A model generated the notes under the pieces. It saw nothing but the letters and a program-made list of their open reading frames with translations. It searched no databases and had not been told where the DNA came from. A stretch of 64,000 nucleotides of DNA from Brachycybe producta (lineage: Eukaryota; Arthropoda; Diplopoda; Playtdesmida; Andrognathidae). This document shows positions 1 to 60,849 of this stretch, in pieces; the stretch's first letter is position 1, and every line of letters starts with the position of its first letter. Position numbers and translations under genes: made by a program. Location of the stretch: assembly GCA_036925085.1 (NCBI GenBank), contig JAUPFP010000001.1, positions 18,475,342 through 18,539,341 of the forward strand, read 5' to 3'.

Positions 1-700
1 TCTGAAGCTGGTCACTTCGGAGTGTACAAGACATACCAATGGTTGCTTACTTGTTTGTACTGATTAGGTATGAAACGTGACATGGTGGAGTATGTTAAGT
101 CATGCTTGGTGTGTCAGAGAGTACGACAGTTCGCAAGAGCTCAAGGATCCTTGCAACTGATAGTTCCAGAGTACCCCTTTCTTGCCTGGGGAATGGACTT
201 CGTTGGGCTGTTTCCTGCATCCGTGGGTGGAGTCACCAATGTATTAATTATGGTGGACTACTTCACCTGATACGGCGTGGCAAAGGCAGTACGAAGGGCT
301 ACGGCCGCCATCAGCAAGCTAATGGGCTTACGGAGAGTACAAATAAAACCATGATGGAAACCATCAAGCGTTACCTTGATCCCCTCAAGGACCAACATGA
401 TTGGTGGGAGAAATTGTGGACCGCCGTGTGGGCCTACAACACTGCGGTGCAAGAGAGCATGGAAGTGTCTACGTACCAATTGTTGTTTGGGCGTGAGCCT
501 AGGTTGGAGATTGATAAACTCTTTCCTAATGGTCCGGTCCACGACTTGCCTGACCAGCAAGCCGTGGAGGTCTGGATGATGGATATGGCTGGGAAGCTCG
601 GCCAGGCCAAGAAGTGGAACTTCGCTTACAAGGCTGAACTGGGTACGGTGGTCCGGCAGGTTTCTGACCTAGTCTAGGAGGTAGTCACGAGAAAGTTCAG
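1..700 (+). pseudogene. Decayed Ty3/Gypsy integrase fragment
   Basis: Frame 1 from the window edge reads as the zinc-binding start of a retroviral-type integrase: GHF near residue 5, an in-frame TGA near base 61, then SCLVCQR and WGMDFVGLFP with the first catalytic Asp of the DDE core. After DYFT there is another TGA. The reading frame then shifts, and the sequence resumes in frame 3 at QANGLTEST (third catalytic region) and runs through YLDPLKDQHDWWEKL and VWAYNTAVQ to about 677. The part that should hold the second Asp (DRGTQF-type motif) is deleted. It resembles the integrase of the large element at 50897-62179 but is clearly a different copy. The 5' part lies outside the window. Confidence 0.85.
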
Positions 701-1174
701 GTGGTGCCAAATCTTGTCTTCCACTGTTAATTTAAGGTGATACCTTACTGAATTGTTGATATCGAAGAACGATTTTTTCTAAAAAAACACTCATTAGAAG
801 GTCAAGTTACAAGAAAATAGTATAAAAACACAAGAGTAATTGGAGGACACTTTTTTTCCGAAACATAACTTAGTATTTGTTTAGAAACAGATTTCTATAA
901 ATTGTTCGATAGGTTGTTTCATAGTAGAATGGCTGAGATTGACAAGTGAGGAAAACTTATTTTTCTTGGTAAAAAACCGTCTTCACTGTCTGCAGGACAA
1001 TTAGAGAACAAGTATAGTAAAAGTACCCTTTATAACTTGTAAACCGACTCAAAACTATTAGAAAGTCAGATAGAAAGAAAAGAAAAATCCACTGCAAAAC
1101 AAGCATCCTAAATAATTCTCTATGTTACCAGCCTGAGGGGGTCAAATGAATTACAATATGATAATGGTAAAAGA
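701..1174. other. No gene seen
   Basis: This AT-rich stretch follows the integrase relic. I see no sustained coding frame or clear repeat in it. It may be the decayed 3' part of the same retroelement. Confidence 0.4.
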
Positions 1175-27013: not shown

Positions 27014-27766
27014 TCACCACCTGGATGGGTGGTGGCCCCATGAGTGCATGTGGCGAACGCAGCTATCCCTGTTGCGGAGGGTGGGGAAGGTCCTGGATCC
27101 ATGAATTCTTGGAGACTGGATTTCATCGGTAGCAGGAGGCAGCGGAGAGCCACTGGCCCTAGTTTTCCGGCAGGTCCCAGTGGAAGATATTGTGGAAGCC
27201 CCGTCCCCGATAATCTTCCTAGAGGACCGCTTGTTGTGCAGGGTGGCCCAGGCGGCGTCCCACAGAACGGCAATCCTATAGCGGGGGTCTGGTTCTGGGA
27301 TGTGGAAACGACCAGAGCGGAATGGTTTCTCACCTGAGAGTCTGAAGACGGAGTTGACAAAAGCCCCCAAAAGGGCGGATGTGGCTGCATCAACGCCATA
27401 AAGTGAATACCAGTCTTGATATTCAGAATAGTACCACGGGGGTTTAATCATTCTCCTGGCATGATCCAAAATTTTCTTAACGAAGGTTGTTTTCCCGCAA
27501 TTGCTGGGACCGGCAATAATCATCCTAAACGGTGCCTTCAATGGAATGAAGGAACCCTCTTTTTCCATGATCGATACGGAATCTTGCGGTAGTTGTATAT
27601 TGGCAGGTGCTTCCGTTTTAGTAGAAATAGCGATGTTCGTTGTTTCGAGGATAAGCATAAGAGCCCCTATGCAGCCCATAACGATGTATTTTATACTCGG
27701 TTTCCTTTTTTGCGGCATCACCGTTTCCTCTATCGTTAAGCGCGATATTTCATGTTGCTCTACCAT
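27014..27766 (-). CDS. P-loop NTPase, virus-like
   Basis: A 250-codon frame. Residues about 27-48 form a hydrophobic segment (YIVMGCIGALMLILE). Residues about 80-100 contain a Walker A site: FRMIIAGPSNCGKTTFVKKI. It is followed by PPWYYSEYQDWYSLY, a context seen in small P-loop ATPases carried by mobile DNA viruses and virus-derived transposons (packaging-type ATPases). The C-terminal half is notably GC-rich compared with all neighbours and reads FHIPEPDPRYRIAVLWDAAW. The last 80 residues look low-complexity, and a second open frame overlaps them (26977-27399), so a frameshift near the end is possible. A CAG|GTGAGA donor-like site lies at about 27333. Role inferred: nucleotide-driven DNA handling. 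Not a known host gene to me. Confidence 0.5.
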   Translation of the reverse strand: MVEQHEISRLTIEETVMPQKRKPSIKYIVMGCIGALMLILETTNIAISTKTEAPANIQLPQDSVSIMEKEGSFIPLKAPFRMIIAGPSNCGKTTFVKKILDHARRMIKPPWYYSEYQDWYSLYGVDAATSALLGAFVNSVFRLSGEKPFRSGRFHIPEPDPRYRIAVLWDAAWATLHNKRSSRKIIGDGASTISSTGTCRKTRASGSPLPPATDEIQSPRIHGSRTFPTLRNRDSCVRHMHSWGHHPSRW

Positions 27767-27907
27767 TTTAGCTTCAAGAATGTAACGAGAATGAGTACAT
27801 AACGTGATATTTATTCAGTATTAGTACAAGCTTTGAAAATTTCACATCGCCACTCATATTCTAACCAATGGTCAATCAGATACAAAATTCCTTGAATGAT
27901 GACGCTT

Positions 27908-28177
27908 CTAATCGGTTTGGCATATTCGATCCAGCGGTTTAACACAAATAAGACATTCACACTCGAATAAATCATTTATTTTTTTCCGTTCGTATACCTC
28001 GGGATACATCGTACAAAAATGTGTCGGAACTTGACTTCCATCACCCGCTTTTAGGAGTTCGTCTTGATGAACACAGTCAGCACACGCTTTATTCCAACCT
28101 GGTAATTTTATCATGGTTTTTATCGCATCACGAGCTTGCGCGCGAATACCAGGAAAATCCGTTGGCGTATACAACAT
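27908..28177 (-). CDS. Small Cys-rich protein, unknown
   Basis: An 89-residue frame with CADCVHQDELLKAG, THFCTMYPE and ECECLICVKP, a cysteine spacing that suggests zinc binding. The ATG is preceded by TTTATTTTACTCAG, a good splice-acceptor-like sequence, so a 5' exon may exist. It sits 30 bp from the stop of the upstream gene and about 140 bp before the P-loop gene, with AATAAA at 27811-27816 (minus) serving as its likely 3' signal. Function unknown. Confidence 0.45.
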   Translation of the reverse strand: MLYTPTDFPGIRAQARDAIKTMIKLPGWNKACADCVHQDELLKAGDGSQVPTHFCTMYPEVYERKKINDLFECECLICVKPLDRICQTD

Positions 28178-28206
28178 TCTGAGTAAAATAAATTGTACAT
28201 ATTAGC

Positions 28207-28743
28207 TTATTTCTGTTTTTGTACCCATAATCTAAAAATATAAGCCTCATTTTTTGCACAATGTGCTATTCCATTTCTCCGTTTTTTATGACGACTACAC
28301 GTAAAGTCAACTTCTTGAGGGCCAAAGATTGTCAGTAAATTCTCATATTTTATACAAAGGCCTAGTTTCTCGAGGTTTATGCTAGGAATATTTAATTTCA
28401 TTAATAATTTTTTTTCCACAGTGCCCCCCTTATAAGCAAATAAGGCATTTGAATTTTTCTCAGAGGCATGCGTATACAAGCTACGTAAAACATTCAGTAA
28501 TGTTGAAAATGCGACATCATCGGTATCATTTCTATAAGAAAGACCATGAATATGTGCCGTCACGAATTGCATTGTTCTGACATCTTTTTTAGTAAACAGT
28601 CTATTTTGAGGAAGTCGAATAAACATATTCATCGGAGGTGGATCACCGATAGTATAGTATCCCTATTCTTTAATGTAAAAATCACTTCCAATTTGAAACC
28701 CGTCACAATCAATAACGGTGGATATATTGCCGAAAATAGACAT
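28207..28743 (-). pseudogene. Exonuclease-like protein gene with one stop
   Basis: The frame opens at 28743 (IDCDGFQIGSDFYIKE), meets TAG at codon 27, and then runs 150 codons to 28207. Motifs are IDCDGFQ, FVTAHIHGLSY, FAYKGGTVEKKLL, INLEKLG and a terminal Cys/His cluster (CSRHKKR, AHCAKNEAYIF). The layout resembles RNase H-fold DEDD exonuclease-like proteins found scattered in animal genomes as mobile or virus-derived genes. It may be a single-nonsense pseudogene, or translation may start at the later ATG (28632), which would lose the first acidic motif. I give the family with low certainty. Confidence 0.4.
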
Positions 28744-28779
28744 TCTGGAAATTAATTTTTCATTCATAAGGCTGAATCA

Positions 28780-29085
28780 AACTGAGAAAAAAAACGTACC
28801 TAATGTCGTGAAATCCGAGGCTTCGGGTAATGAGTAGATCTTGCCATAGCATATACGTTTCTCCAAGTACTTATACCCCTTAGCTTATTCCATTCTTGTT
28901 TCCAAGGGGTGTAAATAAATCTCAGCCTTGACAAAACAAGAATAGACATGTTCAGACATGTTTAGGCTTGTTCAAACATGCCTCGATGTGGTCCAAAGGG
29001 TGTGTCTAAATCATGAACTTATGAAAAACATGTATAGACATGATGACTCATCTGTCTAATCTGTCCTACTGAAATACTCCTGATT
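28780..29085. promoter_or_regulatory. Divergent promoter region
   Basis: This 300-bp gap separates the minus-strand gene group (28743 and below) from the plus-strand RING gene. It contains the p53-type element at 28944-28983, a TATAAGTACTTGG on the minus strand at about 28866-28878, and further CATGT-containing motifs at 29030-29045 and 29082-29090. Confidence 0.4.
28944..28983. promoter_or_regulatory. p53-family response element, four half-sites
   Basis: AGACATGTTC, AGACATGTTT, AGGCTTGTTC and AAACATGCCT follow each other without spacer. Each fits the p53/p63/p73 half-site RRRCWWGYYY perfectly, giving two complete sites. They lie 103 bp upstream of the first ATG of the RING gene. Variation falls only at positions the consensus allows. 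Confidence 0.65.
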
Positions 29086-29700
29086 ATGTACCATGTCTGG
29101 TCCCCGTTAACACTATTTCTCATACCTAATGTTAATTTTTCGGAACATGATAATTCCCGAGCCTATTGTCAAACCTTGGTTGGGCATGATGCAACTATGT
29201 CTTCTTATAATTCATGTATTTCATTTGTAGACATTGCATCTGATTCTGAAACGGAGCCTGAAACTGTATCGAATGCCTCTACAAGAAGTGCTGCAGTTAA
29301 TAGACATCCAATTGTCTATCTCGATGACTCCAGTAAGTAATTAGATTGGTCGTAAAAAAATTTTAAAAAAAATAATGAAATTGCAACTGCAGATGACACG
29401 ACCGATAGTGAAATTCTCCTCCAGCTGATGGGAAATCCACCTGTAAGCCGAAAAGAAGAACTTCTGGAGAAACTACTACCCTACGATGATGAAGAAACGG
29501 CGACTATCAAATATTGTACTATTTGTTTAGTGAAGGGTGCACGGGTTGTATTTGACCCTTGTAAGCATCAAGCTGCCTGTAAAGCATGTACAACAACGTT
29601 ATTAGAAATGGAAAGTTTTTTATGCCCAGTGTGTAGAAACCCCATTTCAAATGTAATTGATGTTTACCAGCCCTTAACAGACTTATTGCCAATTGAATGA
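29086..29700 (+). CDS. IAP-type RING finger protein
   Basis: Model: 29086-29332 joined to 29393-29700, a 60-bp intron with GTAAGT donor and TTGCAACTGCAG acceptor; 184 residues. A later ATG at 29197 would give 147. The N-terminal part is acidic and Ser/Thr-rich (DSETEPETV, DDTTDSE-like). The C-terminus is a C3HC4 RING: CTICLVKGARVVFDPCKH, CKAC and CPVCRNPIS, ending close to the C-terminus as in IAP and MEX3-type RINGs. Expected activity is E3 ubiquitin ligase. There is no BIR domain. AATAAA begins within 15 bp of the stop, so the 3' UTR is very short. It converges on the BCL-2-like gene. Whether host or viral in origin is not settled; IAP-like RINGs are common in DNA viruses. Confidence 0.8.
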
Positions 29701-29742
29701 ATATCATCTAAAATAAATCCTGAAGTTCTTTTATATATTGAA

Positions 29743-29828
29743 CACTTCTGCAACAGACCTCTGCCTGCCTTGGGATACCAAGTTTGCTATCCCTAAGCAG
29801 GCAGAGGTCTGTGGAATGCAGAAGTGTC
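29743..29828. terminator. Large hairpin between convergent genes
   Basis: ACTTCTGCA...CAGACCTCTGCCTGC pairs with GCAGGCAGAGGTCTG...TGCAGAAGT. The 15-bp core arms are perfect and extend to about 35 bp with small bulges, and the inner TTGGGATA / TATCCCTAA continues the stem. It sits between the stop codons of the RING gene (29700) and the BCL-2-like gene (29885), so it could separate the two transcription units. It may also be a small foldback insertion. Confidence 0.6.
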
Positions 29829-29884
29829 ATTCGTTATTATAAAGAAATGAAACAATACTGCAAAAAATTTCAGCATGTAACATT

Positions 29885-30361
29885 TTATTGCATTCGTATT
29901 AATAAATATAACAAAGTGCTAATCATCAGTAATTGCGGAACCACATGAATAACGTTACTCGGAGCGTCGTTAGGTGTTGCGTAGACATCCTGCATCGCAG
30001 CCCATGATCCATTATCTCGAAGCCACGATGCTGATGACTTGAACACGTATTCACCAATATGCACTGCCGTTGCTTCCTCGAATCCGAATCTTGCCAGTTG
30101 GAGAACGAGTGCGTAAGTCACTATTATTTTACCGAATGATGGTGATCCTCGATAAACTTCATCCAACAAGAAGGTTAATTCTTGGTTCAAATGTGACACA
30201 GTTTTTAAAGTTGTTGCTATGGATTCGAAAGCTTGAATATCCTTATTTCGAGCTTGTTCGGCGAGTTTGTAAATTGTTCGTGAAAAGTTGGAATTCACGG
30301 TTCCGTGCGATTGTTTGGCCATATGATACACATCAATGGCAATTTTAGTAGATTCCTGCAT
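29885..30361 (-). CDS. BCL-2-like apoptosis regulator
   Basis: 158 residues. A BH3-like helix at about 29-47 (TIYKLAEQARNKDIQAFESI), BH1 at about 67-88 (DEVYRGSPSFGKIIVTYALV), BH2 at about 112-127 (SWLRDNGSWAAMQDVY) and a hydrophobic C-terminal anchor at about 136-156 (VIHVVPQLLMISTLLYLLI) are in the canonical order. BH1 has FGK in place of the usual NWGR. The C-terminal anchor predicts mitochondrial or ER membranes. Pro- or anti-apoptotic action cannot be told from sequence. The AATAAA signal overlaps the stop codon. A 5' UTR intron is likely (donor GAAG|GTAAGAAG near 30458, acceptor TGTGCTTAG near 30385). The ATG chosen follows that acceptor. Its compact arrangement with the RING and P-loop genes suggests viral ancestry. 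Confidence 0.8.
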   Translation of the reverse strand: MQESTKIAIDVYHMAKQSHGTVNSNFSRTIYKLAEQARNKDIQAFESIATTLKTVSHLNQELTFLLDEVYRGSPSFGKIIVTYALVLQLARFGFEEATAVHIGEYVFKSSASWLRDNGSWAAMQDVYATPNDAPSNVIHVVPQLLMISTLLYLLIRMQ

Positions 30362-30479
30362 GTTGAACACCTTCGTAAAAGCTAAGCACAACTAACATTA
30401 AAAAGTATAAAAGTGGTTGGCCTTCATATATTCATAGTATGAATTAAAACTTCTTACCTTCTATATACAAAACAACAAA

Positions 30480-30770
30480 GTCGTGAAAACAAGTTTCTTT
30501 TATCATCACAGTAGGTGGAAAGGTGGTAGAAAAAAGTTTTAAACTTCTTTCTCTGAGAAGCAAAAAAACTGGGTCAAAGTTTTTTCTCTCTGATGAAGCA
30601 TTAAAATGGCTTTGAAACGAGTGATGCAGAAATGACTCAATAATAGTCTATGGGAGATTGGAATGTGGTGCCCGAAATGAGGTCACCTTAGTAGTCTATG
30701 GAGAAAAGTGATGCAGTAATGTATTTCCCTATACTACTTTTCCCTACTGTTATTACTAGACACTAATTGG
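30480..30770. other. Upstream flank of the BCL-2-like gene
   Basis: No coding frame. AGTCTATGG occurs twice (30647, 30692), and similar phrases occur near 31291 and in the LTRs at 51581 and 61838. Confidence 0.3.
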
Positions 30771-36249: not shown

Positions 36250-37578
36250 AATTCAATTCAATTCAATTCAATTAAATACACCTGCAATCAGCTCGAAAGC
36301 CATGTGGCAGGGAGAGATTGCTCCCAATCACGACTGATTGTCATTATTTAAAAATAAAACATCATCATGAAATTGAAATCGTCCTAACAAAGAACTATTC
36401 ACAGGAAGAGAATTCCATAGTCTAATAAGATTAGGAAGAAAAGACCAAAAATATGCATCAGTCCTAGCCATTAATTCTTTGAAAGTTTTTGAATGCCCAA
36501 ATCTACCTTTACGAGGATTTCTAGTTAGTAAACCATTAAGCAGGGTAATGTTATCACAAGACAGCAAACGTCCCAGAAGAGCGAGGCTTTGCTCATTTCT
36601 TCGGCCTGCTAATGATTCCCATTCTAGCTCTTGGAGCATAGACGATACGCTGTCAGTATACGCATACCGTCCCTTTACAAATCTTGCAGCCCTACGCTGC
36701 ACCATTTCTATTTCTTGTTTTAGATTATTTCTAAATGGGTTCCAAATTGGGGAACAATATTCTAAGATAGGTCTAACTAGGGTAAAGTAACAGACCTTCT
36801 TTACATTTTCTTTACAATGTTTAAGGGTGCATTGGACAAACCGCAGCCTTTGATTAGCTTTGGTTATATGATCTTTCCAAAGCATGTCCTTGGACAAGGT
36901 TAAGCCAAGATATTTGATGGTATCAACATGGGTTAGCTGAACATCTCCCATTGTGTAATCTGCCATGAACGATTCTCGCTTTCGAGAAACTCGCATAACA
37001 TTGCATTTACTCCTATTCAGTTGTAAATGCCACTCAGAGCACCACTCTTCAACACTGTCTAGATCTCTTTGGAGAACTTCACTATCCTCATTATCCCTAA
37101 TCCTCCTGTAAACAACAGCATCATCTGCAAACAAATGCATCGTACTGTTGCATCTGTCTGACAGATCGTTTATGAACAGAAGGAAAAGCAGTGGTCCAAG
37201 AATGCTACCCTGAGGTACACCAGATGTTACTTTAGCCCAGTCTGACACAGCACCATCAATTTGGACTCGCTGTTGTCTATTTGATAAGAATGATGATGTC
37301 CACGAAATTACTTGTTTATTTAAGTTAAAAGTCATCATTCTTTTAATTAGTAGTGAATGCTTCACTGTATCAAATGCTTTTGCAAAATCTAAAAATACCA
37401 AGTCAAATTCGCCCTTACTATCCAAGCCAGATTGTATGTCTTGGATGAATAGTGCTAACTGGGTATCACATGATCTGCCTTTTCGAAAACCATGCTGGTT
37501 TTCATGAATTAATTTATGGTTTTTTAAATGCTTGATTGTATTAGAATAAATTTTATGCTCGAGAGTTTTACAAACAAT
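36250..37578 (-). mobile_element. 5'-truncated CR1/jockey-type LINE
   Basis: On the minus strand the RT starts before its first motif (HENQHGFRKGRSCDTQLALF), with VFLDFAKAFDTVKHSLLI, VPQGSILGPLLFLLFINDL, FADDAVVYRR (catalytic ADD intact) and the C-terminal region (LEYCSPIWNPFRNN, RRAARFVKGRY), ending at 36328. The frame is open for over 400 codons. The upstream endonuclease ORF is absent, so it is a 5'-truncated copy. The 3' end is a run of ATTCA/TTGAA units (36250-36275). A second copy is at 43678-44841 plus 48102-48172. Confidence 0.9.
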
Positions 37579-43589: not shown

Positions 43590-43677
43590 TTTAAAAATGT
43601 TGCTTGTTTGCCATTGCGATTTTCTTCAATTTCCATGGGTGAAATTTTGAATAAGATTTTTTATAGTGCATATTTAA
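43590..43677. mobile_element. Left half of a split MITE
   Basis: TGTTGCTTGTTTGCCATTGC...TATAGTGCATATTTAAT matches 33580-33662. The continuation (ATGACATATTTAGTTG..., 33659-33741) is found at 48172-48257, so the two LINEs between them were inserted here. Confidence 0.8.
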
Positions 43678-44841
43678 TTTTGCAAAAGCATTTGATACAG
43701 TGAAGCATTCCCTACTAATTAAAAGAATGATGACTTTTAACTTAAATAAACAAGTAATTTCGTGGACATCATCATTCTTATCAAATAGACAACAGCGAGT
43801 CCAAATTAATGGTGCTGTGTCAGACTGGGCTAAAGTAACATCTGGTGTACCTCAGGGTAGCATTCTTGGACCACTGCTTTTCTTTCTGTTCATAAACGAT
43901 CTGGCAGACAGATGCAACAGTACGATGCGTTTGTTTGCAGATGATGCTGTTGTTTACAGGAGGATTAGGGATAATGAGGATAGTGAAGTCCTCCAAAGAG
44001 ATCTAGACAGTGTTGAAGAGTGGTGCTCTGAGTGGCATTTACAACTGAATGGGAGTAAATGCAATGTTATGCGAGTTTCCCGAAAGCGAGAATCATTCAT
44101 GGCAGATTACACAATGGGAGATGTTCAGCTAACCCATGTTGATACCATCAAATATCTTGGCTTAACCTTGTCCAAGGACATGCTTTGGAAAGATCATATA
44201 ACCAAAGCAATTGCCAAAGCTAATCAAAGGCTGCGGTTTATCCAACGCAACCTTAAACATTGTTAAGAAAATGTAAAGAAGGTCTGTTACTTTACCCTAG
44301 TTTGACCTATCTTAGAATATTGTTCCCCAATTTGGAACCCATTTAGAAATAATCTAAAACAAGAAATAGAAATGGTGCAGTGTAGGGCTGCAAGATTTGT
44401 AAAGGGACGGTATGCGTATACTGACAGCGTATCGTCTATGCTCCAAGAGCTAAAATGGGAATCATTAGCAGGCCGAAAAAATGAGCAAAGCCTCGCTCTT
44501 CTGGGACGTTTGCTGTCTTGTGATAACATTATCCTGCTTAATGGTTTACTAACTAGAAATCCTCGTAAAAGGTAGATATGGGCATTCAAAAACTTTCAAA
44601 GAATTAATGGCTAGGACTGATGCATATTTTTGGTCTTTTCTTCCTAATGTTATTAGACTATGGAATTCTCTTCCTGTGAGTAGTTCTTTGTTGGGACGAT
44701 TTCAATTTCTTGATGATGTCTTATTTTTAAATAATGACAATCAGTCGTGATTGGGATTATTTAAAAATAAGAAATCATCAAGAAATTGAAATCGTCCCAA
44801 CAAAGAACTACTCACAGTCGTGACAATCAGTCGTGATTGGG
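43678..44841 (+). mobile_element. CR1/jockey-type LINE, 5'-truncated, interrupted
   Basis: Second copy of the LINE at 36250-37578, about 97 percent alike by eye. It starts inside the RT (FAKAFDTVKHSLL), has FADDAVVYRR, and stops at 44263 (TAA in NLKHC*) with further lesions after it. 44680-44815 contains a 65-bp inverted duplication of its own 3' UTR (GTTCTTTGTTGGGACGATTT...). Its last 70 bp are displaced to 48102-48172 by the RTE insertion. Confidence 0.9.
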
Positions 44842-52778: not shown

Positions 52779-55700
52779 TTAATTATCCCCCAGATCCCAG
52801 GGTTCGGCCCATTTGTTTTTTCTTGGGTCGAGATCGGTCCCTCGGAGACGATTTAGAAGTTCAGCAAACGTCTCGCTGTCGTCAGCTGGTGGGATTCGAT
52901 GCGTGGTTCGAACCTTTTCTCGAAACAGCCGTCCAAACGTCTCAGCAGCCCTGTCCTCGTCGGTCCCCAGGCTTGATCCATAGTTGAATCGTAACGATGG
53001 CTGCGGGTCCTCCCGTAAGTGGACCAGAGCCCGTATCCATTTTTCCAAATTGAGTTGAAGGACATTCTTGGGTTTCGGGTGGGGGTTTGTATAAAACGTG
53101 CAGACCCCGCTCGATGTGTTGATCCATATGATCCCGTAATCCTTTCCGTGTCGAATACCGATTGCGTGTGCTCTTCCCGGGACTTGCGCTGTCCAACGCA
53201 GGGGAATCGGATCGTTAACGCAATACGATCCCTCGTACTGGAACTCGTCCCCTGTTTCGTACAACTCTCCTTGCATCAGGATCATCATGTTATTGAGGAC
53301 CTGATCCCGTCGGCCATACCCATAATAAGGATATCTTCCTGAACCCATGGTCCGTTCTTCTATCATCTTGGCAACACCAGGCAAGTGGAGTAGGCGCAAC
53401 CGTTCCTTTTCTAAGGCGGCGATCCGTCGTCGGCCATCCCAAGTTCCGAAATTTCGCAAGGTATCTGCTGAGGAGAGAGGTGCCATCATTTGTGGTTGGT
53501 CAATTTCATAGCTCGAGAAATAGAGAGCCGGTGTAGAAGAACACAGGGCTTTCGGGCTCGATACTTTGAAATTGGCTCGTTCCAGCATCGTCTTTCCTCT
53601 TCCTTGTCCAGGAGGCACCGGAGGTAGCGGCTTCTCATTGACGACTCGAGTTTCTCGAAGGATCAGATTTTGTAAAGTTTGTTCAACCTCATACATCCGA
53701 CGACATAAGTTTAACTCATATCGAGTGGGTGGATTCCCCAAAGGCTGCCCGGAGGAGCTGTTTTCGTCGGAGGATAAGCTGATCCCATCCGAAGAATTCT
53801 GCTCGGCTTCGCTGAGCTCTTCAACTTGCTCCACCTCCTCGATCTCTATCAGTTGGTCGTTCATTCCATCGCCCATTAAATTTTCCTGGGTTGTCGGCCC
53901 TCTGTATCGTACTAGTCGATAATCTTCGCTGTCCGAGTACTCGACTTCAGACTTCATCGTTTTTCGGTCTGACATAATTCTTCCAACAAGTAATTTAACT
54001 TTCTCTTTGAGATTTTGGGAAAACAAAGAAATTGATGTTGCTTGGTGTTTTCTCCCAACTTGAATATTTAGCCTCGTGTTATGTAGAAGATTTAGAGATA
54101 AAACTTTAATTAACAACGGGGTTTCCTTTCGTAATTTAGGGGTCTTTAGCTTATTGGCTGACTGCTGTGATGAGATCACTTTTGTTGCCCGTTTAGACCC
54201 CTGGAGGGTTGTTATTTGACCTGTTACTTTTGTGTTGATTTTGCAAAGTTTCTTTGCATCCGCTTCGTTCACGTCCGCGCCCCACACTTCCGCTTCCGTT
54301 TCATCTTTTTCCTTTTCCTTGATTTCCGTCTTTCTGTGCTTTGTTGGATGATTGTCGCGTCGTAGATAGTGAGTCCAGATATCGCTGAGGTCTGAATCCA
54401 CCTGCGGAGGGTTCCATACCTTCCAGGCAGTACTCCATGGTCTGTGCTTCATTTTTTCCGTAAATACCTTGTAACCCGAATTTCCGTATAATTTAGGTTT
54501 TAGGGAGGTAATGGGCCAGCCACTGCTCCGTAGATTGGTGATCGTCACTACGTTCCAGCCGCCATTTTTTTCTTGTTTCATCAATTCCGTCTCCGTGAGG
54601 CAAATTACGTCACTTCCTTGTTTTGATTCCAAAGCATGGGGGATTCCTTTTCTCGTCGCGTGATGACTTTTCATTGGGGGATTGTAAACAATTCCACCAG
54701 CCGGGTGCCTTTGACGTTTTCCCATTTGCGGTTTATCCATCTCCGCTTCGTTTTTAATGCCTTTTTCCTCCTTGAGGACATATTTTGCGTAGGAGTGGTT
54801 TTCCATTTTAAAACTTCGGATGCCGCTGCCAGTAGGTGCGTAATTCACAACGATCTCGTCTTTTTGCTCGTATAAGCTACAGGCGCGGTTATTTCTTTTC
54901 TGTTGAACCATGTTGGGAGAGGCAGGCGTCAGTCCCTCTCGATTATCTCTGTATTGGACCTCGGTAACCCAGTTACATGGCGCTTCCGTTTCGATTCTTT
55001 CCATATTAATCCAGCGAACGTGATTATTGACAGGTGAATTATCCAAGATTACGAGGTTGTTTTCGGGTTTGCGTAGGTCACAGGTGCGATAATATTTCTT
55101 GAGGTTAACCACGTTGAAGGTGTCACGGGCTAGTTTTCCTCTTCCGTCTTGAAACTCAACTTCGAATACCAAGTGGCTCAATTTCCTCGTGACGACTCCC
55201 GGTCCTTTGAAAGGCAGAGCTAACTTCTGAGCTAATCCTAGCTTTGGAGCGTAGTCTCTAATTAACACCTCGTCCCCTACATTGAACTCATCCGGTGCTC
55301 GTCTTTTTGAATCATACTGTTTCCTTTGTTTCTCTTGCGCAGTTCGTAGGTTTGCATGAGCATCTTTTAGCTCAGGCCGCTCCAACAGGTTGATTTCCTC
55401 TCGTGAGGCTATCTCGGGAGCGGATGGCACTACGTTGTCAATCGGCTCTCGAGCTTTTCTCCCAAACATCAATTCAAATGGAGTGTATTTCATGGATGAC
55501 TGTATGGCTGTGTTGTATGCCCATACAGCATCATCGAGTGCGCTGTGCCAATCTGTTTGGAATTTCAAGGGATCAAGATACCTTCTTATGATTTCAATCA
55601 AGGTTCGATTACACCTTTCGGCAAGCCCGTCTGCTTGTGGGTGATACGCCGTGGTATAATGGTGCTTGATACCATATTCTTTCAGACAAGTATCTACTTG

Positions 55701-57353
55701 TTTACTGGCAAACTGTGTTCCTCTGTCCGAAATTATGTCTGAGGGTGTTCCGAAGCCTCTTACGAAGTTATTTTTTATGAAGGTGACAATTGACGAAGCA
55801 GTTGCTCTCCGAACTGCTTTGGCAATTAGGAATCTTGCCGCGTAGTCGACTGCAACTAAAATGTGTTGGACTTTCGCGGTCGATGATGTCATTGGCCCGA
55901 TGAAATCCATACCCCATTTTTCAACTGGCTTCTCTACACAGATCGGCTCTAAAAATCCTTGTGGCCGCTGAGGTGGCTTCTTTGATCGCTGACAGATGTC
56001 ACATGTCTTGACATACTCGTAGGTGTCCTTCTTCATCTTTTTCCAGAAAAATCGCCTATGTAGGCGTCCATACGTCTTGAAGAAACCCAAATGACCTGCT
56101 CCAGGTTCGTCGTGAACCATTTCCATAATGTGTCTTCGCAGTTGCTTTGGTACGACTGTCAGGAGAATTGGTTGCGGAGTGCCCAGCACGTTGGCATACA
56201 GTAGTCCTTGAAAAATTGAATATTTCTTGCTGAGCGGTGTATTTGGTTGTTCCATGAGCTCGTGACAAATTTCCGAGATCTCGGGGTCTTTTTGTTGCTC
56301 CTCAGCCCAATTCCAGGCTGGCAACACAGCGTAAATCACTCCATCATCCATTTCGTGCTCGACATTCTCTGGTAAATCTTTATCTATTGGTGTGTTGACA
56401 GGATTTCGGGACAAGCTGTCTGCATCGACATGTGTTATTCCTTTCTTGTACACAACCTTGTACCGGTATTCCTCGAGGAGTAACTGCCATCTTCCCAACC
56501 TTCCTTGTAGTCGTGGTGCTTTCCGTAAATAGCAGAGGGAGTTGTGATCAGTGACAACGGTAAAGTCGCGATTAAAGAGGTAGGGTCTGAACTTTGTAAT
56601 TCCGAAGACAACCGCCAGGCACTCTTTCTCTGTTGTGGTGTACCGTGTCTCGGCGTCCTGTAGAGTTCTGCTGGCAAAAGCCAGAACTCGTTTTACATCT
56701 CCTTCTTTCTGTTGATAGAGCACGACACCTAGTCCATGCCCACTTGCATCTGTATGCAACGATATCTCTGCTGTCGGATCATACATGACCATGACCGGAG
56801 CTTCGATAAGGAGCGCTTTTAGCCTCTTGAAGGCCCTGTCTGCCTCATTAGTCCATGTAAACTCGTTGTCTTTTTTCGTTAGATCGTATAAGGGTTTGGC
56901 AGCATAAGCAAAGTCTTTTATGAACCGGCGATAGTATCCAGCTAATCCAAGGAAACTTCGAACTGTAGTTACGTTTGTCGGTTGTGGAAAGTCACGAACA
57001 GCAATAACTTTGTCTTCTTCTGGGGCGACTCCATCTTCGCTGATGATGTGGCCCAAGTATGATACTTTGTTGTATCCGAAGAAGCATTTTTTCGGCTGCA
57101 GTGACAAGTTAGCTTTTCTTAATAAGTCCAGGATTGTTCGGAGACGTTCCAAAAAGCTTTCGAAGGTTCGACCAAACACGATGATGTCGTCCAAGTAGAC
57201 GAGGCATGTTTCCCACTTTTGGTCGGCAAGCAAGACGTCCAATGCACGTTGCATTGTTGCTGGCGCGTTGCAGAGACCAAAAGGCATCTTCTTAAATTCG
57301 TACAGTCCGCACGGGCTTATGAATGCAGTCTTCTCCTGATCCTCCTCCCTCAC
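52779..57353 (-). CDS. Gypsy pol: RT, RNase H, integrase, long C-terminal extension
   Basis: A 1524-codon frame continuing pol after a frameshift. RT: MPFGLCNAPATMQRALD and YLDDIIVF (catalytic DD at about residues 54-55). RNase H from about 200 (LHTDASGHGLGVVLYQ, TTTEKECLAVVFGI, DADSLSR). Integrase zinc finger at about 395-440 (AGHLGFFKTYGRL, CDICQRS), core with MDFIGP, SDRGTQF and ADGLAERCNRTLIE, then the C-terminal beta region (FKGPGVVTRKLSHLVFEV). From about residue 760 to 1524 the frame stays open with no family I recognise: a basic stretch, an acidic Ser/Glu-rich patch (SDSEDYRLVRY, EQVEELSEAEQNSSDG), PPVPPGQGRGK and a globular-looking end (WIRALVHLREDP). Such a long post-integrase region is unusual; it has no TM helix, so it is not an envelope. 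Confidence 0.9.
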   Translation of the reverse strand: MREEDQEKTAFISPCGLYEFKKMPFGLCNAPATMQRALDVLLADQKWETCLVYLDDIIVFGRTFESFLERLRTILDLLRKANLSLQPKKCFFGYNKVSYLGHIISEDGVAPEEDKVIAVRDFPQPTNVTTVRSFLGLAGYYRRFIKDFAYAAKPLYDLTKKDNEFTWTNEADRAFKRLKALLIEAPVMVMYDPTAEISLHTDASGHGLGVVLYQQKEGDVKRVLAFASRTLQDAETRYTTTEKECLAVVFGITKFRPYLFNRDFTVVTDHNSLCYLRKAPRLQGRLGRWQLLLEEYRYKVVYKKGITHVDADSLSRNPVNTPIDKDLPENVEHEMDDGVIYAVLPAWNWAEEQQKDPEISEICHELMEQPNTPLSKKYSIFQGLLYANVLGTPQPILLTVVPKQLRRHIMEMVHDEPGAGHLGFFKTYGRLHRRFFWKKMKKDTYEYVKTCDICQRSKKPPQRPQGFLEPICVEKPVEKWGMDFIGPMTSSTAKVQHILVAVDYAARFLIAKAVRRATASSIVTFIKNNFVRGFGTPSDIISDRGTQFASKQVDTCLKEYGIKHHYTTAYHPQADGLAERCNRTLIEIIRRYLDPLKFQTDWHSALDDAVWAYNTAIQSSMKYTPFELMFGRKAREPIDNVVPSAPEIASREEINLLERPELKDAHANLRTAQEKQRKQYDSKRRAPDEFNVGDEVLIRDYAPKLGLAQKLALPFKGPGVVTRKLSHLVFEVEFQDGRGKLARDTFNVVNLKKYYRTCDLRKPENNLVILDNSPVNNHVRWINMERIETEAPCNWVTEVQYRDNREGLTPASPNMVQQKRNNRACSLYEQKDEIVVNYAPTGSGIRSFKMENHSYAKYVLKEEKGIKNEAEMDKPQMGKRQRHPAGGIVYNPPMKSHHATRKGIPHALESKQGSDVICLTETELMKQEKNGGWNVVTITNLRSSGWPITSLKPKLYGNSGYKVFTEKMKHRPWSTAWKVWNPPQVDSDLSDIWTHYLRRDNHPTKHRKTEIKEKEKDETEAEVWGADVNEADAKKLCKINTKVTGQITTLQGSKRATKVISSQQSANKLKTPKLRKETPLLIKVLSLNLLHNTRLNIQVGRKHQATSISLFSQNLKEKVKLLVGRIMSDRKTMKSEVEYSDSEDYRLVRYRGPTTQENLMGDGMNDQLIEIEEVEQVEELSEAEQNSSDGISLSSDENSSSGQPLGNPPTRYELNLCRRMYEVEQTLQNLILRETRVVNEKPLPPVPPGQGRGKTMLERANFKVSSPKALCSSTPALYFSSYEIDQPQMMAPLSSADTLRNFGTWDGRRRIAALEKERLRLLHLPGVAKMIEERTMGSGRYPYYGYGRRDQVLNNMMILMQGELYETGDEFQYEGSYCVNDPIPLRWTAQVPGRAHAIGIRHGKDYGIIWINTSSGVCTFYTNPHPKPKNVLQLNLEKWIRALVHLREDPQPSLRFNYGSSLGTDEDRAAETFGRLFREKVRTTHRIPPADDSETFAELLNRLRGTDLDPRKNKWAEPWDLGDN

Positions 57354-59278
57354 TCTGACCTGCCAATGTCAAACCTGCCTAAGTCAAGTGTTGCGAAATA
57401 TCGACTATTTGCCAGTGAATCCAAAGCATCGTCGATTCGTGGTAGTGGATAGGTATCCATTTTTGTGTTTGCATTAAGCTTACGATAATCTACGCAGAAA
57501 CGATGTCGTCCATCTTTCTTTCTTACGATCACCACAGGGCTGGCATAGGGGCTCTTGGAAGGTCGGATGACTCCTGCATCGAGCATCTCCTTTATCTCCT
57601 TCCTCATAATTTCACGTGCCTCTGGTGCAGTCCTTCGCAGCGGTTGACGTACAGGGCGTGCATCTCCGGTGTCGATTTCGTGCTCGGTGAGATTTGTTTC
57701 TCCTAACTCGCTCAAATCGAATGCAAATGACTCCCTATGTTCGGTGAGCAAATCCTGAAGAGCAATTTTCTGGTTGGATGTTAGGTTTGGCCCAATATTC
57801 AAACAGTCCTCAAAGTTTGAATCTTTCCCATTCTTATTTCTTAGGGTCCCTCGGATAGTCTTCTCGGCCTCCTTCGTGGTTGTGGGAAGTTGCCGGGGAT
57901 CTATCTCTGGAGCCGTTTCATTTTTGTCGTGAAGAGCCGTATCGAGGATTTCCGCTGTGCCAATTCCTTGATGTGCACCCAGTGTTAACGTCCTTGAAGT
58001 AGTATTCCGTATCAATACTCTCATTTTTGGTTCATCATTTACCTCTAATATTCCGGGAGCTGTCATCACACCTTTTTTCTCCCAGATCTCCGGGTTGACA
58101 TCGATGAGGACCATCTCTCCTTTCTGCGGACAATCCTTGCATTTTACGTCGACCAGTCTTTCTTCCCAAGGGTCGAGGCGAATTCGGTTGATTAACCGCA
58201 GCGTCAAGGGTTTACCAACTGCTGTCGGAGTGGTCGGGATGACCAGTGATCCATCTTTAGAAGGGCTCTTGCCGCTGGTCGTTCCTTCTACCTTAACTTT
58301 TTGAAATACTTGGGGTGCATCTACCGGCAAATTTTCCATTGGCGAATACTGTTGGACAGTTTGAGGGTTCCCTACTATTGCTGAACTCCCTCCTTCCATC
58401 ATGTCTTCTTTGAAAAAGATCGCTTTCTTTTCCATATCTACCATCAATCGAAATGCGGCACCGAGGTCGTTTCCAAGTAGCGCCTCCATTTGCCCGTTAA
58501 TGATAATTATTCTGGTTGTGGCCAATTTCCTGTAGAGTCTCACTTGGACTTCTGCTGACCCAACAATTTTTATTTTTGACCCTCCAACCGTGTTAATCGT
58601 TTCGTGGATTGGTGTTGGATCAATTTTCAGGCCTATCATTTTGGCCACATTTTCGCTCAGGATGCTAATGTCAGCACCCGAATCTACCATCATCTCTACG
58701 GCAATCCCATTCATTGTGACGAAAATTCGTGGAGGACCGTATTCCGGGATTCTCGATTGAATCTCTTTTGCCTCCGGTATCATCATCACTATTTCTTGCC
58801 TTTCCTGCCTCGGCTGCATCTTAGTACCTTCTTCCTTGCTTGCTTCCTCTCGCTCACCATGCTGTTCCGTTACCACTCCACTCACTGGAAGTAAATTTAG
58901 TGCATTCGTTAAGCTCTTGATCGCGTCGATCAATGTCGAGGTTATGGTCGGTGCGGACTCCTTCACTGGTCCTCTGCTAGAAAGATGCCTTTGTGTTTCC
59001 CTTTCTGCATTTCCGGCTCTCGCGCCTCTCGTGGAATCGTTAGAGGTGGACTTGCAATCAGGGCGATGATCCGATGATGAGGGGCATTCTTTATGGTCTC
59101 CCTCCTTCATCCTGTCTCTACTGGTTCCCATGTTCTGTGGTGGACTTCGTGCACCACTCAGAACTTTCGTTGCTACTCGTACTTGCACTAATCTCTTTTC
59201 CAACTTCTTCTCCGAGGTTGTGGGTTTGAAAACAGGCGGTCCGACACTCGGTTCGTCCTCCGCCCGTTCTAGTTTAAC
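57350..59278 (-). CDS. Gypsy pol N-terminal part: protease and start of RT
   Basis: The frame overlaps the end of gag in the -1 phase and is open to TGA at 57350. About residue 170 (counted from 59203) carries the retropepsin site MMVDSGADISILS. The RT begins with ILDAGVIRPSKSPYASPVVI-like sequence and FCVDYRKLNANT, then the frame is lost between YFATLDL and the downstream WQVRV-type region at about 57370, so the following frame must be reached by a frameshift. Usually these domains are continuous in one ORF, so this is either an inactivating indel or a sequence error. Confidence 0.9.
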   Translation of the reverse strand, partial: VKLERAEDEPSVGPPVFKPTTSEKKLEKRLVQVRVATKVLSGARSPPQNMGTSRDRMKEGDHKECPSSSDHRPDCKSTSNDSTRGARAGNAERETQRHLSSRGPVKESAPTITSTLIDAIKSLTNALNLLPVSGVVTEQHGEREEASKEEGTKMQPRQERQEIVMMIPEAKEIQSRIPEYGPPRIFVTMNGIAVEMMVDSGADISILSENVAKMIGLKIDPTPIHETINTVGGSKIKIVGSAEVQVRLYRKLATTRIIIINGQMEALLGNDLGAAFRLMVDMEKKAIFFKEDMMEGGSSAIVGNPQTVQQYSPMENLPVDAPQVFQKVKVEGTTSGKSPSKDGSLVIPTTPTAVGKPLTLRLINRIRLDPWEERLVDVKCKDCPQKGEMVLIDVNPEIWEKKGVMTAPGILEVNDEPKMRVLIRNTTSRTLTLGAHQGIGTAEILDTALHDKNETAPEIDPRQLPTTTKEAEKTIRGTLRNKNGKDSNFEDCLNIGPNLTSNQKIALQDLLTEHRESFAFDLSELGETNLTEHEIDTGDARPVRQPLRRTAPEAREIMRKEIKEMLDAGVIRPSKSPYASPVVIVRKKDGRHRFCVDYRKLNANTKMDTYPLPRIDDALDSLANSRYFATLDLGRFDIGRSE

Positions 59279-60849
59279 GGGAGGCTAGCCGAAGTGGTCG
59301 GTGCGATAGGAAGGGTAGGTACTAGTATTCGGCCCCCATGTAGGTTGGCGTAACCCATCTCTTCGTTTGTTAGGTGCCTGACAACAGGGGTTGTTGTCAG
59401 GGTAGCGGCTGCAGCAATGGCAGCTGCTCTCTCCACCTCTTGTTGCTGCTTTATGTCATCCCTTATGTGGCGGACTGTGGAGTCGGGTGGTCCATTCCGC
59501 CGGGGTTCGGGGCAAAACTTGCTCAGATGCCCAGGTCTCTGGCAATTGTAACAAGTGCGTCTTTCGGGTCCTTGGTAGTCCCGGTATCGACTCTCGTTTC
59601 GGGAAGTGCCCTGGTTTCTTTCTTGACTGAATCCCGTGCTCTGTCGTGGCTGTTGAGATGGCTGACCTCTTGCTGCTTGTTGCGGCGGGGGTTGGCTTGG
59701 TGGGCCATCTTGTTGCCTCTTCTGTAAGTTATTTGGTTGCTGCCGTTGCGTTTGGCCTCCTGGGGATTTATACGTGACAGAGGACTGTGATGGAGGTCCA
59801 AACCCTCCATTTCGTAGTGTCTGTGGTGGTTGCTGGGTGCTCGTTGACGTGTCTCTGGGGTAGTTGGCCTTAGATTTAAGTACTAGTTGTCCAGAGGCAA
59901 TTAAATCAGCTTCCATCCAGTGAGCACGCTCCATGTACTCATCGGCAGACATTGGGGGCAATCCACAAAGTTTCGCCGAAATCTCTTTTCGCATCCCTCT
60001 GCTTAATTGAGAAATATGAAGTTCATCCCCACTGTTTGGGGCAATTTTGTCGCATAATTCTACGCAGCGATATGCAAATTGATAGAATGGTTCGTCGTCT
60101 CGCTGCACCAGGCTCAGCAGTTGTTTCATCCATTGTCGGCCATGTTTGGCACGACCAAATTTCTTCACAACGTGTCCTCGCATCTCGGCCCAAGTTGCCA
60201 TTGAGGTGGTCTCCATTAACTTCGATACAAATCGCAATGCATACCCATCCAGGCATGATGAGAAATAGCTACAGCATTCACCATCAGTCCAACGGTGTAA
60301 ACGGGCCTTCGCTTCAAAGTTCTCAAGATATTCGTGGATATCTTCCACACCATTAAAACGTTTAAACCCTTGCAACGGGTGCCAAGCACCAGTCTGCCGC
60401 CATTGTCGGTCACAAGGGGGAGCGCGTGTCCAATCAGGCTCAGCACCGGGTGCCGCGGTTGTGGGTGGCATTAATTGTCTCGAGGTGTCTACTTGCAAGG
60501 TTGGTGCAAATATTGGTGTAGGCTCAGGGGCCATTCGTGAAGGTCCTGCTGTGCTTGCTTCTTGTATATAATGTGGTGTTGCTATTTGGGGTGGTGGCCC
60601 ATGTGTTGGCCCCGTGAAATAGTTCGAAAGGCTCTCAAACAGGAATGCACGTTGTTCCGGTGTGTATCTTAATAGGAGGAGGCCCATAGCGGTAGCCTCT
60701 TGCTCCATGTTGGGGATTTCATGCGAATAAGAAGGAGTTTCAAGACTCACCCCACCATGCTGTACAGTGCCGGTCGGCTGGTCTTCAGTGGTCCTTGTTT
60801 CTTCAGTTACCGATGGCCCATCAGTGGATGTGTTTGGTACATTATCCAT
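59269..60849 (-). CDS. Gypsy gag
   Basis: 526 codons. The middle region (about 150-330) has the retrotransposon gag pattern: WHPLQGFKRFNGVEDIHEYL, FEAKARLHRW, MRGHVVKKFGRAKHGRQWMK. A Gln/Pro-rich stretch follows, and then a CCHC zinc knuckle (CYNCQRPGHLSKFC) at about residue 445, which binds the RNA genome. The frame ends at the slippery heptamer. It is intact. Confidence 0.95.
   Translation of the reverse strand: MDNVPNTSTDGPSVTEETRTTEDQPTGTVQHGGVSLETPSYSHEIPNMEQEATAMGLLLLRYTPEQRAFLFESLSNYFTGPTHGPPPQIATPHYIQEASTAGPSRMAPEPTPIFAPTLQVDTSRQLMPPTTAAPGAEPDWTRAPPCDRQWRQTGAWHPLQGFKRFNGVEDIHEYLENFEAKARLHRWTDGECCSYFSSCLDGYALRFVSKLMETTSMATWAEMRGHVVKKFGRAKHGRQWMKQLLSLVQRDDEPFYQFAYRCVELCDKIAPNSGDELHISQLSRGMRKEISAKLCGLPPMSADEYMERAHWMEADLIASGQLVLKSKANYPRDTSTSTQQPPQTLRNGGFGPPSQSSVTYKSPGGQTQRQQPNNLQKRQQDGPPSQPPPQQAARGQPSQQPRQSTGFSQERNQGTSRNESRYRDYQGPERRTCYNCQRPGHLSKFCPEPRRNGPPDSTVRHIRDDIKQQQEVERAAAIAAAATLTTTPVVRHLTNEEMGYANLHGGRILVPTLPIAPTTSASLPLN
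59272..59278 (-). promoter_or_regulatory. Candidate -1 ribosomal frameshift site
   Basis: The heptamer G TTA AAC directly precedes the gag TAG stop in the correct gag phase. A -1 slip reads GTT AAA CTA and enters the pol frame, which is open upstream through this point. GUUAAAC is a functional variant of the X XXY YYZ slippery class. Confidence 0.65.

Follow-up and report, generated by a model that had tools for sequence, protein, structure and literature searches.

An Endogenous Adintovirus-Like Element of Brachycybe producta with a Candidate p53-Family Response Element in Its Promoter Region

Introduction

Why should four copies of the p53-family half-site RRRCWWGYYY stand in a row, without a single spacer base, between two divergent genes of the diplopod Brachycybe producta, and to whom do these genes belong? 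The array lies in a 64,000-nucleotide stretch of contig JAUPFP010000001.1 (hereafter the window), for which a preliminary description proposed an apoptosis-gene locus wired to p53, p63, or p73. Here, we examine the array itself, the element that surrounds it, its recurrence in related elements, and the p53-family protein of the host, and we weigh the readings that these data allow.

Results

A Contiguous Run of Half-Sites

The four contiguous, perfect half-sites with zero spacing announced in the preliminary description are present as described (table 1), and they contain the arrangement by which a p53-family response element is recognized, namely two decamers with a short spacer or none. The unusual feature is the contiguous run, single decamers being without enrichment: the window holds 21 matches to RRRCWWGYYY against 17.0 expected from shuffles, and 21 or more were reached in 24 of 100 shuffles. 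When full sites were scanned with zero spacer and with C4 and G7 demanded in both halves, four overlapping 20-mers with at most two mismatches were found in the window, all inside 28934–28983, and the remaining 60,680 bases held no full site with two mismatches or fewer and one with three. No comparable full site was found in seven stretches of 6.9–7.0 kb at three other copies of the element (L042–L048). A p53-type full site is thus present beyond chance, a perfect one having arisen in none of 1,000 dinucleotide shuffles of the 350-bp region. The decamers are not independent, however, as they look like a 10-bp tandem repeat, so that the product of four single-site odds overstates the case.

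Table 1. Position of the decamer array and of neighboring features, counted from the first base of the window.
Feature	Position	Strand	Remarks
Adintovirus-like element, shortened	~27438..30739	.	Approximate extent; right terminal repeat ~30426–30741
Nuclease-like viral gene, left of the array	28207..28767	-	The exonuclease of the preliminary description; function putative
TATA-like box of the nuclease-like gene	28871..28878	-	TTATACCC on the plus strand; invariant in 24 sequences; 28878 changes once among 33; would serve as TATA box of this gene
Degenerate decamer abutting the array	28934..28943	.	20-mer 28934–28953 has 2 mismatches; slight variants in the compared sequences of families A–C
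Four abutting RRRCWWGYYY decamers (p53-family half-sites)	28944..28983	.	Starts 28944, 28954, 28964, 28974; zero spacing; all perfect
Decamers 2 and 3 of the array	28954–28973		Perfect in 36 of 40 copies
Two degenerate p53-like decamers	29026..29045	+	Presumably what is left, in shortened form, of a second repeat unit, of which the older copies L037–L040 have a longer version
RING gene, exon 1, right of the array	29197..29332	+	45 codons; gene model from reading the sequence, splice sites predicted
RING gene, exon 2	29393..29703	+	C3HC4 RING finger (PF13920, E 6.6e-12)
Bcl-2-like gene, beyond the RING gene	29885..30391	-	PF00452, E 0.0015, below cut-off

An Element Repeated Throughout the Genome

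The layout of the neighboring genes is broadly the one first described, with a nuclease-like gene on the left, a RING gene on the right, and a Bcl-2-like gene further right. However, rather than forming an apoptosis locus of the host, these genes belong to a high-copy endogenous adintovirus/Maverick-like element. Positions 28880–29060 have at least 44 matches in the 295-Mb genome (68 candidates, of which 40 were scored), and as four of these 44 are second matches at the same place, 40 copies remain, that of the window included. All 40 match window stretches between 27.4 and 30.7 kb. The preliminary description had named a generic tandem repeat at random sites as the finding that would speak against a regulatory site; the sequence is repeated indeed, but the array occupies the same position inside the element across the 40 copies.

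The window copy is truncated, the element continuing leftwards in the three copies that were followed further, and one complete copy on contig C62 measures about 16.4 kb from its end coordinates. The two ends of this copy, both of which lie inside the same tandem satellite, match each other in inverted orientation over 204 bases (83%), and the right end of the window copy matches the opposite end of the C62 copy over 332 aligned bases (82%). Such terminal inverted repeats are shared with adintoviruses and Maverick–Polinton elements, with which the element also has in common a family B DNA polymerase (PolB), an rve integrase with a C-terminal chromodomain (L045; PF00665, 2.1e-15; PF00385, 3e-8), and a weak match to adenovirus protease, below cut-off, found in the C62 copy along with a dUTPase. 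The nuclease-like and Bcl-2-like genes complete this gene set, which in some families includes the RING gene. At the left end of the C62 copy, about four tandem versions of the terminal repeat, of ~310 bp each, were also observed (L048, 4917–6168).

The PolB assignment concerns residues 650–1154 of a frame in L048, with which 7,939 of 7,985 scored candidates matched at E ≤ 0.001, PF03175 being found on some of the 120 listed; the frame has a YTDTDS motif, which we take to be that of family B DNA polymerases, and gave no direct polymerase match in Pfam, PHROGs, or a PDB sequence search. An N-terminal OTU-like domain of PolB is part of the adintovirus definition (PMC11071296). In Pfam, the PolB-like frame matched no OTU family, Endonuclease_7 being its only match and below cut-off, and two frames of 464 and 449 aa, considered for hexon and penton capsid proteins, matched no Pfam family above cut-off. 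In viral contigs, no match was obtained to a piece of PolB, to the alignment of nuclease-like sequences, or to a 25-mer from the array; the sole viral-contig match to RING exon 2 (L041) was rejected as a chance match on a phage contig. The phage collection and Rfam returned no match, and neither RING exon 2 nor the Bcl-2-like protein found a homolog in protein searches.

As for the flanking genes, the nuclease-like gene adjoins the site in every family examined, and its open frame has 151 codons in the window copy against 189 in many others. For the gene described as IAP-type, the IAP label, which calls for a BIR domain in addition to the RING, is not supported by the second exon, where PF13920 and no BIR family was matched. 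The Bcl-2-like gene counts as a Bcl-2 family member because its homolog in the related family D1 passes the PF00452 cut-off (E 9.8e-11, 42.5 bits against 31.4), the window protein being 33% identical to that frame (E 4e-16); the corresponding frame of family D2 stays below the cut-off (E 2.6e-6), and PF00452 was not matched on that of family E1. A single-sequence fold of the Bcl-2-like protein was uninformative (mean pLDDT 40.7) and was left unused.

Variation among Copies

Across the 40 copies, four strict decamers are found in 12, three in 9, two in 18, and one in 1, and with CGTG and CACG cores allowed, four are found in 28, three in 9, and two in 3, counts which lean towards conservation since these copies are the most similar to the query. 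The differences from copy to copy mostly oppose CGTG/CACG to CATG at decamers 1 and 4, and in the type of copy encountered most often, two decamers are strict and the other two have CGTG and CACG cores. According to PMC2807882, a G at core position 5 is tolerated by p63, p73, and fly p53, so that the commonest variants would be covered and 28 of the 40 copies would then keep all four half-sites. In the older copies L037–L040, additional promoter units of ~85–90 bp stand in tandem, which contain degenerate decamers and a TATA-like CTATAAATC.

Base by base, the conservation of the array within families A–C is modest at best. Among young copies, the variability of the 40 bp is 0.046 against 0.024 and 0.025 in the two flanks, a difference that argues against tight constraint. 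In the comparison of young with old copies, it amounts to 0.103 against 0.084 and 0.194, and decamers 2 and 3 (0.025) are better kept than the array as a whole; 20-bp segments as conserved as these two decamers make up 10.2% of all segments and 4.4% of intergenic ones, and segments as conserved as the whole 40 bp 39.7% and 20.3%, respectively. When changes were counted by parsimony in 33 sequences, the register of family C having been set by hand, decamers 2 and 3 underwent 17 changes in 20 bp (0.85 per column) against 1.38 per column in 202 flank columns, a level matched by 3.9% of random draws of flank columns and by 38 of 236 contiguous 20-bp segments. The comparison of array with flank columns gave P 0.02–0.07, and the C4/G7 columns had 0.63 changes per column against 1.13 in the other array columns (P 0.065 against flank columns).

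Recurrence across Diverged Families

Related loci were hand-picked from at least 151 matches, as sets of 20, then 7, then 17 upstream stretches, mostly of open frames; the shuffle test took 7 of the first 20 loci and all 7 of the second set. Of the 17 upstream stretches, L088, L095, and L099 were left out of the family counts; they do not resemble the gene start of the alignment, and sites with five mismatches or fewer are absent from them. In its nuclease-gene part, family B is ~83–86% and family C ~76–77% identical to the window, and both keep the array whole or in part, family C (in which L092 has a perfect site) being one decamer short, as is copy L036. Among 20 further loci of families A–C, four successive decamers, none with more than one mismatch when CGTG and CACG are allowed, were found in 15, and a run of two in the other five (L060, L062, L063, L065, and L074). 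For 10 regions of these families, the best full site had 0–1 mismatches and was matched by 0–1 of 1,000 shuffles. The RING gene of the window found no DNA match in any of seven family C loci, and the Bcl-2-like gene was matched in six of them. With regard to the latter, families A and C are 86–89% identical (L067–L073 against window 29881–30370), compared with ~76–77% in the nuclease-like part, an excess hinting at gene exchange between families or at stronger constraint.

Beyond families A–C, the nuclease-like protein is 53% (D1), 54% (D2), and 45% (E1) identical to that of the window, and two abutting half-sites are found without the four-decamer array. The full site has three mismatches in both D1 loci (8 of 1,000 shuffles each), three, three, and four mismatches in three D2 loci (5, 5, and 12 of 1,000), and two mismatches in one E1 locus (1 of 1,000), where it overlaps the end of a Bcl-2-like frame, so that coding constraint may contribute. 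In all of them, every C4 and G7 is kept, 16–18 of 20 positions agree, and the site lies at +134 to +204 from the start of the nuclease-like gene. Additional loci have the site in three of three cases for D1 and three of five for E1, L096 having none and L098 a half-site only. Family E2 is the exception, no full site having been found in six of six loci (L083, L085, L086, L087, L093, and L094).

At the E2 locus L083, where the site is absent, a PC4-like transcription coactivator frame (654–950, minus strand; PF02229, 7.5e-10) sits beside the nuclease-like gene, in the place that Bcl-2 occupies in other families. A tie between site and Bcl-2, suggested by this locus, was dropped, as at four loci of another Bcl-2-bearing family (L104–L107) the ~1 kb examined is devoid of a full site.

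A p53-Family Domain in the Host

The genome encodes a p53/p63-like DNA-binding domain. On contig C133, PF00870 was matched by three stretches within 0.9 kb, each above cut-off, the first of which has one TAG that we read as a splice acceptor. Once joined, these exons match an unnamed DNA-binding domain in 7pc6 (E 2.6e-57), p63 (2e-53), p73 (5.7e-53), and p53 (best 2.5e-45). The motifs NRRP and CACPGRDR, which we take to be DNA-contact motifs, are kept, and the frame downstream of the domain presumably reads as a p63-type tetramerization helix; the first ~20 positions of the domain, including its first loop, were not found at this gene.

Discussion

Taken together, the most likely account, and in our judgment a fairly probable one, is that the 40 bp serve an adintovirus/Maverick-like element as a p53-family response element within its promoter region. 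The site lies between a TATA-like box, which would serve the minus-strand nuclease-like gene, and the point where the divergent RING gene begins, in what would be a promoter region shared by both. There, p53/p63-like tetramers of the host would bind two or more abutting decamers, decamers 2 and 3 forming the core, and alter how the nuclease-like gene is transcribed and, in elements that have one, the RING gene. Viral gene expression could thereby follow the DNA-damage or apoptosis signal of the host, presumably to the benefit of the element, which also carries a Bcl-2-like gene. Since a site of this kind is retained at a comparable position in several of the related elements, the element may be responsive to the host's DNA-damage alarm. 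That even diverged families have the site in a comparable place lifts the reading above a curiosity, and the modest base-by-base conservation and the exception of family E2 hold it back.

Mobile elements with p53-type full sites inside them, spread by the elements themselves, have a precedent in the human retroelements LTR10B, MER61, MLT1H, LINE-1, and Alu (PMC4287438; PMC5031199). In contrast to these, the site described here is housed in a DNA virus-like element integrated in an invertebrate genome, next to the promoter of a nuclease-like gene, and turns up again in families that have diverged strongly. A search of the literature on p53 together with adintoviruses or Polinton/Maverick elements turned up no promoter with a p53-type site, the sole adintovirus passage on p53 concerning an E4orf6-like gene. 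The p53 response element of Drosophila reaper comes close in layout, with two decamers whose cores are CATG and CAAG/CTTG, but reaper is a cellular pro-apoptotic target gene, whereas the gene here is viral.

A p53-family protein could also bind the site mainly to silence the element, in which case the site would reflect restraint by the host rather than a viral sensor. This reading, which overlaps with the main one, has a precedent in a review, according to which p53 restrains transposons in fly and zebrafish and the p53 sites of LINE-1 and HERV LTRs are mostly negative regulators, with an activating exception (PMC5031199). That the commonest copy type retains just two strict decamers, with CGTG and CACG in the others, fits with it as well, although such altered cores would still suit p63-like proteins. 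Furthermore, a purely silencing site should tend to vanish from the element, yet this one recurs in several families. We regard silencing as the main role as unlikely.

We likewise have little confidence that the array amounts to a repeat with a period of 10 bp, or to the binding site of another factor, and fits the degenerate p53 consensus by accident. Its tandem structure does gain and lose units, as illustrated by the decamer missing from L036 and family C and by the further units, with degenerate decamers, of older copies, and CATG-rich palindromes suit other factors too. However, the C4/G7 columns change less than the other array columns, albeit with borderline support against the flanks, two abutting half-sites persist in families D1, D2, and E1 in the absence of a four-decamer array, and full sites are absent elsewhere in the scanned stretches. 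More improbable still is that the window copy owes its four perfect decamers in part to a neutral process, in which CpG decay from CGTG/CACG to CATG perfected decamers 1 and 4 in some copies. The creation of p53-type sites by CpG deamination is reportedly the subject of a paper, and the copies do differ mostly in this manner, but decamer 1 is already CATG in family B and in the older copies L038, L040, and L066 (CGTG in L039) and decamer 4 in L038, L040, and L066 (CCTG in families B and C), so that CATG is not simply decay, and decamers 2 and 3 are independent of it.

Returning to the p53-family response element, a bolder version, to which we give a low probability as a whole, would be that in one lineage of adintovirus-like proviruses of animals, which carry a Bcl-2-like gene of their own, a response element for the p53/p63 family of the host has been kept to switch on early genes (nuclease-like and RING) upon damage, as an animal counterpart of SOS prophage induction. 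SOS-induced prophages are integrated viruses that read the DNA-damage regulator of their host, in bacteria via LexA/RecA, and the analogy is one of working alone, without any claim of homology. If integrated DNA viruses of an invertebrate were controlled by the p53-family protein of the host, the link between genome-damage signaling and mobile DNA would extend from retroelements to integrated DNA viruses. The many natural copies, with their differing decamer states, constitute a ready-made allelic series.

Finally, other mobile sequences were observed alongside. The window holds frames of an LTR retrotransposon, probably Gypsy-type, at 52779–60849 on the minus strand (gag with a zinc knuckle, aspartic protease, and RT/RNase H/integrase), and two inverted copies of an RVT_1 retroelement, 97–98% alike, at 36322–37388 and 43677–44756. 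As to the host itself, COX1 with TGA codons and the gene order COX1, COX2, and an ATP6-like frame point to an arthropod. Besides a COX1-like copy on contig C442 (L053), three more (L054–L056) lie on the large contigs C1 and C17 and are probably nuclear insertions of mitochondrial DNA.
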